This document shows, piece after piece, positions 2,468 through 28,476 of a DNA stretch of 64,000 nt. The position numbers and the translations under genes are program-made. The notes below the pieces were generated by a model. The model saw nothing but the letters and a program-made list of their open reading frames with translations. It did not search any database and was not told where the DNA came from. Source of the stretch: Halomonas denitrificans (GTDB lineage Bacteria > Pseudomonadota > Gammaproteobacteria > Xanthomonadales > Wenzhouxiangellaceae); the NCBI GenBank assembly GCA_019800895.1, contig JAHVKF010000002.1:930001-994000 (forward strand). The letters are read 5' to 3'. Position 1 is the first letter of the stretch, and every line of letters starts with the position of its first letter.

Positions 2468-2495
2468 TTGACAAAACTTTCACACGGTGTATTGT
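2468..2495 (+). promoter_or_regulatory. candidate promoter of the bchCXYZ-puf superoperon
   Basis: A consensus TTGACA (2468-2473), 16-nt spacer and TATTGT (2490-2495) precede bchC by about 95 nt. The spacer contains the near-dyad ACACGGTGT (2482-2490), inside a sequence resembling the dyad between bchF and bchG. The only other element in the 187-nt gap after crtF is non-descript GC-rich DNA. Confidence 0.5.
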
Positions 2496-25487: not shown

Positions 25488-27331
<1,844 letters not shown>

Positions 27332-27407
27332 GCTCCCTCGCTCGGGAAGAAACGGCGGAATTCGCTCGGCGACGTGCCGGTGGAATCGCTCTGTCTCCCC
27401 ACTACCG

Positions 27408-27436
27408 ACCCTAATCCCCGGACACGGCCGTGTCAA
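27408..27436 (-). promoter_or_regulatory. promoter of the bchF...puh operon
   Basis: On the minus strand: TTGACA (27436-27431), 17-nt spacer, TAGGGT (27413-27408). Transcription would begin near 27401, about 70 nt before the bchF coding start. The -35 is adjacent to the large dyad at 27442-27466. Consensus -35 and ideal spacing make this one of the better promoter matches in the window. Confidence 0.55.
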
Positions 27437-27441
27437 TGTTG

Positions 27442-27466
27442 TTCACGCGACCTTCACACGCGTGAA
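27442..27466. promoter_or_regulatory. candidate operator dyad between bchF and bchG
   Basis: TTCACGCG (27442-27449) and CGCGTGAA (27459-27466) form a perfect 8-bp inverted repeat with a 9-nt spacer, inside which a second dyad TTCAC-N4-GTGAA (27453-27466) is nested. It lies just upstream of the bchF -35 box and about 70 nt upstream of the bchG promoter, a position suited to a regulator of both operons. It is not the PpsR/CrtJ consensus TGT-N12-ACA; the nearest TGT and ACA are 13 apart. Confidence 0.45.
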
Positions 27467-27538
27467 TCTAGGGGGGATCGCCGCAGCGGGTCTCCCGAAC
27501 ACGGTTCCGATCGCGATGGGGCCTGGATGTCGTCGCGG

Positions 27539-27567
27539 TTGACGCGGTGCGAGCGCGAGGCTAGTTT
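27539..27567 (+). promoter_or_regulatory. promoter of the bchG operon, probably giving a leaderless mRNA
   Basis: TTGACG (27539-27544), 17-nt spacer, TAGTTT (27562-27567). The expected start of transcription, 6-7 nt on, falls at the A of the bchG ATG (27574), and there is no Shine-Dalgarno sequence before that ATG. Confidence 0.45.
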
Positions 27568-27573
27568 CCACCG

Positions 27574-28476
27574 ATGCCCGAGTTCCCGTCACCGCGTTCC
27601 ACCCTCGAATTGCTCAAGCCGGTGACGTGGTTCGCGCCGATGTGGGCGTTCGCCTGCGGTGTGGTTTCCTCCGGCGTCGCGGTCCAGGATCGCGTCCTGT
27701 TCGTGATCGGTGGCGTGCTGCTGGCCGGTCCCCTGGTCTGTGGCACCAGCCAGGCGGTCAACGACTGGTTCGACCGCCACGTCGATGCGATCAACGAGCC
27801 CGGCCGCCCGATTCCCTCGGGGCGGATCCCCGGTCGGTGGGGCCTCTACATCGGTCTGATCTGGACCGCGCTCTCGCTGCTCGTCGCACTGCTGCTCGGC
27901 GTCTGGGTGCTGGTCGCGACCGCCGTGGCGCTGCTGCTCGCCTGGTTCTACAGCATGCCGCCGATCCGATTGAAGCAGAACGGGTGGTGGGGCAACGCTG
28001 CGGTCGGCATCAGCTACGAGGGGATCGCCTGGTTTACCGGCGCCGCGGCCATGCTCTCGGCGCTGCCGGGCTGGCCGATCCTCGCGCTGGCCGGCCTGTA
28101 CAGCCTCGGCGCCCACGGGATCATGACCTTGAACGACTTCAAGGCGGTCGACGGCGATCGGGCGATGGGCATCGCCTCGCTGCCGGTCCAGCTCGGCGTC
28201 GAGCGGGCCGCCCGCCTGGCCTGCGCGGTGATGGCCCTGCCGCAGGTCGTCGTGATCGGCCTGTTGCTTGCCTGGGACCGCCCCTACCATGCCGCCGCCA
28301 TCGTGCTGCTGCTGGCCTGGCAGGCAGTGCTGATGGTCCGCCTGATGGAGCGGCCGCGCGAGCGCGCCCCCTGGTACAACGCCACGGGCACGTCGTTGTA
28401 CGTGCTCGGCATGCTGGTCGCCGCCTTCGCGGTGCGTGACGTCGTGCCGCATCCCGCGGTACAGGTGGCCGGATGA
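27574..28476 (+). CDS. bchG: bacteriochlorophyll synthase (geranylgeranyl/phytyl transferase)
   Basis: UbiA-type membrane prenyltransferase, 300 aa, attaching geranylgeranyl or phytyl diphosphate to bacteriochlorophyllide a. The prenyl-diphosphate/Mg2+ motifs are NDWFDRHVDAINEPGRPIPSG (first Asp-rich motif, about 64-84) and NDFKAVDGDRAMG (about 187-199). Eight or nine hydrophobic helices surround them. The gene overlaps bch2 by 4 nt (28473-28476) and has no visible ribosome site. Confidence 0.96.
   Translation: MPEFPSPRSTLELLKPVTWFAPMWAFACGVVSSGVAVQDRVLFVIGGVLLAGPLVCGTSQAVNDWFDRHVDAINEPGRPIPSGRIPGRWGLYIGLIWTALSLLVALLLGVWVLVATAVALLLAWFYSMPPIRLKQNGWWGNAAVGISYEGIAWFTGAAAMLSALPGWPILALAGLYSLGAHGIMTLNDFKAVDGDRAMGIASLPVQLGVERAARLACAVMALPQVVVIGLLLAWDRPYHAAAIVLLLAWQAVLMVRLMERPRERAPWYNATGTSLYVLGMLVAAFAVRDVVPHPAVQVAG

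Follow-up and report, generated by a model that had tools for sequence, protein, structure and literature searches.

What controls bchF and bchG where the two genes face each other directly is the question raised by this locus, which lies in a window of 64,000 nucleotides (G000:C2:930001-994000). On the reverse strand bchF occupies 26774..27331 (BCHF match, E 4e-62), with an uncertain start for which we propose the TTG at 27331. On the forward strand, a bchG-type UbiA prenyltransferase gene at 27574..28476 stands where other loci have ppsR, with or without aerR, followed by bchG. Among 43 genomes of the family that were searched, bchF is present in 4: this genome (G000), G025, G028, and G009. 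The closest BchF among named records comes from L011, a Wenzhouxiangella metagenome assembly, which is the bchF locus of G028; G028 and this genome belong to one family, presumably Wenzhouxiangellaceae. The sister genomes G025 and G028 are both incomplete (93% and 84%), and a contig break interrupts the G025 bchF-bchG gap, so that the comparison of bchF promoters is one of two promoters, those of this genome and L011.

The usual arrangement is different. Of 80 other bchF loci, 77 have ppsR divergent from bchF and within 4.2 kb of it (median spacing 1245 bp between match starts over the 77 loci), an aerR/ppaA-type gene often precedes ppsR, and bchG is found beyond ppsR on the same strand in every ppsR-adjacent locus that holds bchG (67/67). 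The exceptions are L011, L029, where a ppsR fragment lies 5 kb off, and L090, at a contig edge. In both this genome and L011, it is bchG that faces bchF directly.

We looked for PpsR elsewhere with the TIGR02040 profile at its family cut-off in 19 bchF-bearing genomes, made up of this genome, 7 relatives, and 11 reached through loci. PpsR exceeds the cut-off in 16 of these, and the same search finds none in this genome (3.21 Mb in 6 contigs, 99.98% complete), G025, or G028, a lineage that keeps its reaction-center and bacteriochlorophyll genes. The remaining family genome with bchF, G009, keeps ppsR. Weak TIGR02040 matches in this genome were dismissed: the best, identified by eye, is a short frame with a Fis-like helix-turn-helix, next to a purH-like gene, and in the five others the match covers PAS or helix-turn-helix parts of longer frames. 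A B12-binding domain adjoins ppsR in 10 of 13 PpsR-bearing genomes (one below cut-off) among 16 searched, with no AerR-type B12 protein beside ppsR in G009, G153, and G158. This genome has only two B12-binding matches, whose open frames are 1269 and 1157 aa long; G025 and G028 likewise have two each (943 and 1175 aa, 849 and 317 aa). AerR is probably absent from this genome as well, which is a weaker statement than the one for PpsR; aerR/ppaA forms without a B12-binding domain exist, as a passage in PMC10734443 indicates, and these would escape a domain search.

The DNA sites expected of PpsR follow the same distribution. According to the relevant passages of PMC10890935, bchF and ppaA are divergent in Dinoroseobacter shibae, the PpsR site overlaps the bchF -35, and altered half-sites outside the bchF -35/-10 derepressed bchF-lacZ, raising it to the level of the ppsR mutant. 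We defined the bchF box as YGT-N12-ACA ending in the -35. It is found on the -35 in 71 of the 80 other loci where shuffles predict 0.3, and any YGT-N12-ACA upstream of bchF in 74 (10.9 expected); among the 77 ppsR-adjacent loci the corresponding numbers are 69 and 72, and the consensus at bchF is TGTCAA-N6-TTTACGTCAAG.T...TTGACA. Neither this genome (27200-27620) nor L011 (2872-3290) has a bchF box. The 260 bases before bchC hold a box in all 10 PpsR-bearing gammaproteobacteria, TGT-N12-ACA in 8 of them and CGT-N12-ACA in the other 2, the latter form having been reported for Rubrivivax crtI in a passage of PMC4452267 (cGT-N12-ACA). This genome, G025, and G028 have no box in the same 260 bases, and the bchC rows left out were G152 (no match) and G155 and G073 (weak matches). 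Fisher tests give P about 0.015 (45/3081) for bchF (69/77 versus 0/2) and 0.0035 for bchC (10/10 versus 0/3), values whose weight is overstated by the relatedness of the genomes. The box as we define it is missing from 8 ppsR-adjacent loci too, so its absence alone is not diagnostic. Running counter to the pattern is one CGT-N12-ACA in a different intergenic part of the cluster region (36313), which does not lie on a TTGACA. The bchF promoter of this genome resembles the box model no better than shuffles do (P 0.85, or 0.23 with one gap allowed), and we set aside the idea that a box decayed at its old position there. The original prediction, that the regulator here may not be PpsR/CrtJ, thus agrees both with the lack of a PpsR over the cut-off and with the lack of a box in the bchF-bchG gap and the bchC promoter.

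From the absence of PpsR, the gene order, and the distribution of boxes we infer that PpsR has been lost and that no PpsR-type repression acts on expression. In the reading that we favor, at a probability of roughly 0.7, a PpsR module once stood in the bchF-bchG gap and was lost, and the box-less bchF and bchC promoters have escaped its repression. The starting point would be the arrangement of nearly all other loci, in which bchF faces ppsR (in many cases preceded by an aerR/ppaA-type gene), bchG follows ppsR, and a box covers the bchF -35. In the cluster lineage that unites this genome with G025 and G028, the repressor module would have been lost from the gap, leaving bchG to face bchF; bchF and bchC would have lost their boxes, with the TTGACA half staying behind as -35, and sigma-70-type promoters would drive the operons with no repression by PpsR. 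In a BchG tree of 69 rows, which left out rows with <221 aligned residues and L038 (the same locus as G009), this genome, G025, and G028 form one clade with support of 100/99, and G009 is placed elsewhere, in a poorly resolved part. A single PpsR loss in the cluster lineage of these three genomes is the simplest reading, though not a proven one. Within this PpsR-less lineage the cluster has also been rearranged, lhaA and puhA standing directly after bchF in G028 (L181:3291-6151) and G025 (L182), unlike in the cluster of this genome.

The promoters that would remain can be recognized in part. On the reverse strand, the bchF -35 TTGACA (27431..27436), putatively the retained half of the former PpsR box, fits in 6/6 positions and is followed at a spacing of 17 bases by the -10-like TAGGGT (27408..27413). 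The arrangement TTGACA/17/TAGGGT had been described as a consensus promoter, which is accurate for the -35 and generous for a -10 that fits in 3/6 positions. A promoter scan of 27280-27640 called no promoter, the bchF and bchG candidates included. L011 has TACTAT at the position of TAGGGT, and CATTGACA and GATTA before the -10 are common to both promoters. A possible bchG promoter on the forward strand, TTGACG-17-TAGTTT (27539..27567), ends 6 bases before the ATG (TAGTTT through ATG, 27562-27576); in L011 the equivalent TACACT is 8 bases before the ATG, and from this spacing the mRNA of bchG may lack a leader. The bchF -35 is also spanned by a perfect palindrome of 14 bp, GACACGGCCGTGTC (27421..27434, unstranded), which had been overlooked in the original prediction. 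It has a P of 0.029 (2.9% of gap shuffles) and is not found in the L011 gap. As a motif we rejected it: it has 52 sites with ≤2 mismatches versus 28 for the control, and the sites among those listed are scattered over the contigs.

Upstream of the bchF -35 lie the two elements on which the original prediction centered, and both are present as it described them: a perfect inverted repeat, TTCACGCG-N9-CGCGTGAA (27442..27466), and nested within it TTCAC-N4-GTGAA (TTCACACGCGTGAA, 27453..27466), a candidate operator; both are unstranded. One alternative, which we consider improbable, is that the dyad is the site of another lineage-specific regulator, a repressor or an activator. Its position just upstream of the -35 and its perfect 8-bp arms would suit such a role, as would a cluster of three TTCAC/GTGAA pentamers within 30 bp, a criterion devised after the site was seen, which occurs only here in the window, in 1/3000 shuffles, in 0/80 other bchF upstreams, and in 5/29 promoters of the regulator gene considered below. 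Against this, an inverted repeat with arms ≥8 and loop ≤16 arises in 11% of 2000 dinucleotide shuffles of the 239-bp gap (P = 0.11; the 14-bp palindrome and the word shared with the bchC promoter were tested with the same number), so the dyad is not beyond chance. The exact dyad is unique genome-wide, and with ≤3 mismatches it has 14 sites compared with 17 for a reversed control pattern, so it is no repeated motif and was rejected as one. The frequency check proposed for the dyad therefore shows no excess, and the conservation check found it absent from L011, the only close relative with a readable bchF-bchG gap. As a new control site the dyad at 27442-27466 is thus at best tentative: it may be sequence under no selection or else an operator particular to this lineage.

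The nested motif leads to a more specific alternative. TTCAC-N4-GTGAA has 2 perfect sites in 3.21 Mb, and with ≤1 mismatch there are 50 sites versus 15 for the reversed control, an excess behind which coding bias may lie. The perfect site outside the bchF gap (G000:C3:795536-795549; L144:1501-1514) is 72 bp before the ATG of a gene (G000:C3:794779-795477) for a 233-aa OmpR-family response regulator, which follows an FPP-synthase gene and scores 193.5 bits, below the PhoB equivalog cut-off of 296.2. We searched 43 genomes for this regulator and read the upstream regions of the best 30 family matches (L149-L178): 16 have a perfect site, 10 have one with one mismatch, and 4 have neither, the contig starting at the locus in 1 of the 4. 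The perfect site is found in this genome and in 4/4 readable congeners, and TTCACA-NN-TGTGAA before the regulator is kept in most of the best 30 family genomes read, non-phototrophs included. Because the right arm overlaps the ribosome-binding site at several of these loci, though not in this genome and its congeners, part of the conservation may be driven by ribosome binding. Judged from its sequence conservation, TTCACA-NN-TGTGAA is probably a real, autoregulatory operator of this family.

It is conceivable, if unlikely, that the nested site in the bchF gap is an operator of the same regulator, which in this lineage would control its own gene, bchF, and perhaps bchG; from a site upstream of the -35 it could activate bchF. 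The coincidence that one of only two perfect sites in the genome lies in the promoter of a regulator with a site so widely kept before it invites this idea, and the bchF site fits TTCACA-NN-TGTGAA in 11/12 letters, second only to the site of the regulator itself among those listed. When the gap is aligned with the regulator promoters, the mean of the ten best alignments has P 0.016 (equalled by 4/80 other bchF upstreams and 2/200 random windows of this genome), but the best single alignment has P 0.22, its score being equalled by 16/80 and 43/200, respectively. The center of the bchF site, ACGC, does not match the A/T-rich center of the family sites, and with a matrix of the regulator sites it scores a weak 7.0 versus 29.5 bits, ranking 4 in 123,040 bases of this genome. 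The nested site is also missing from the L011 gap, and the search is partly circular, having started from the bchF motif. A perfect TTCAC-N4-GTGAA in G025 (L112:2678) was set aside, as it falls within the final part of the crtF match. We regard a switch of bchF control to this regulator as having a low to moderate probability and the regulator as a candidate replacement for PpsR. The full scenario, in which the lineage discarded PpsR and rewired bchF-bchG control to a house-keeping OmpR-family regulator through the TTCAC-N4-GTGAA operator, is slightly less probable again.

A third alternative, that one motif shared by the bchF, bchC, and crtF promoters is bound by a common regulator other than PpsR, was the core of the original prediction, and we find it very improbable. 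All three promoters do lack canonical PpsR sites, and the elements named are real: the CACGA-A-TCGTG dyad is present in the crtF leader at 1165-1175, and the run TTCACACGGTGTAT in the bchC promoter is correct in sequence, although it lies one base to the left of the 2480-2493 given, at 2479-2492. What they share is expected by chance, the longest word common to the gap and the bchC promoter being 8 bases (P = 0.87, 2000 shuffles) and, for the crtD/crtF gap, a dyad of 5 bp with a loop of 0-1 having P = 0.62 (1000 shuffles). Nor are the elements conserved. The bchC promoter, TTGACA-16-TATTGT (2468..2495, forward strand), has no PpsR box and a core conserved with G025 as TTGACAAAA-YYTTCA-N3-GGTGTATTGT, in which the TTCACAC of this genome is TTCATGT in G025; in G028 the spacer is wholly different. 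The crtD/crtF promoter core resembles the sequence before G025 crtE, which lacks CACGA-A-TCGTG, and neither G025 nor G028 has the dyad in its corresponding crtE promoter region (all judged by eye). Since the shared words are at chance level, the bchC and crtF elements are unconserved in the relatives, and the dyad is absent from L011, the three-operon motif was rejected. The original observations thus survive for the dyad, the nested motif, the -35, and the crtF dyad and in part for the bchC coordinates and the "consensus" promoter; of the interpretation, the departure from PpsR survives and the common regulator of three operons does not.

Also in the crtF leader, ATGGAGGTCGCCGAA at 1200-1214 resembles the start of crtE (MMVAERIE in G025). 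In G025 and G028 crtE sits between crtD and crtF, and it may have been deleted in this genome with its start left behind.

To our knowledge, PpsR has been called universal in purple bacteria. In titles and abstract openings we found no description of a PpsR loss such as the one favored here, and our literature search found no paper with the operator letters. A lineage that retains its photosynthesis genes and in which neither PpsR nor its boxes were found is a natural experiment: either aerobic or light repression of pigment synthesis is dispensable in it or PpsR has been replaced by something.

Among known systems, the OmpR/PhoB family offers a likeness in the nested element, which is similar to the one kept upstream of a single gene of this type in the family, although that regulator, with its predicted binding site, falls below the PhoB equivalog cut-off. 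The bchC promoter shares the TTGACA -35 and the crtF-bchC order with the PpsR-regulated bchC promoters of gammaproteobacterial phototrophs, but this genome, G025, and G028 lack the box, and this genome and G025 have the conserved core instead. Compared with the control of bchF by PpsR/CrtJ and AerR/PpaA in Dinoroseobacter shibae and Rhodobacter, the locus retains the TTGACA -35 and a divergent neighbor, whereas the genome has no detected PpsR, the outer half of the box is missing, and bchG takes the place of (aerR-)ppsR.
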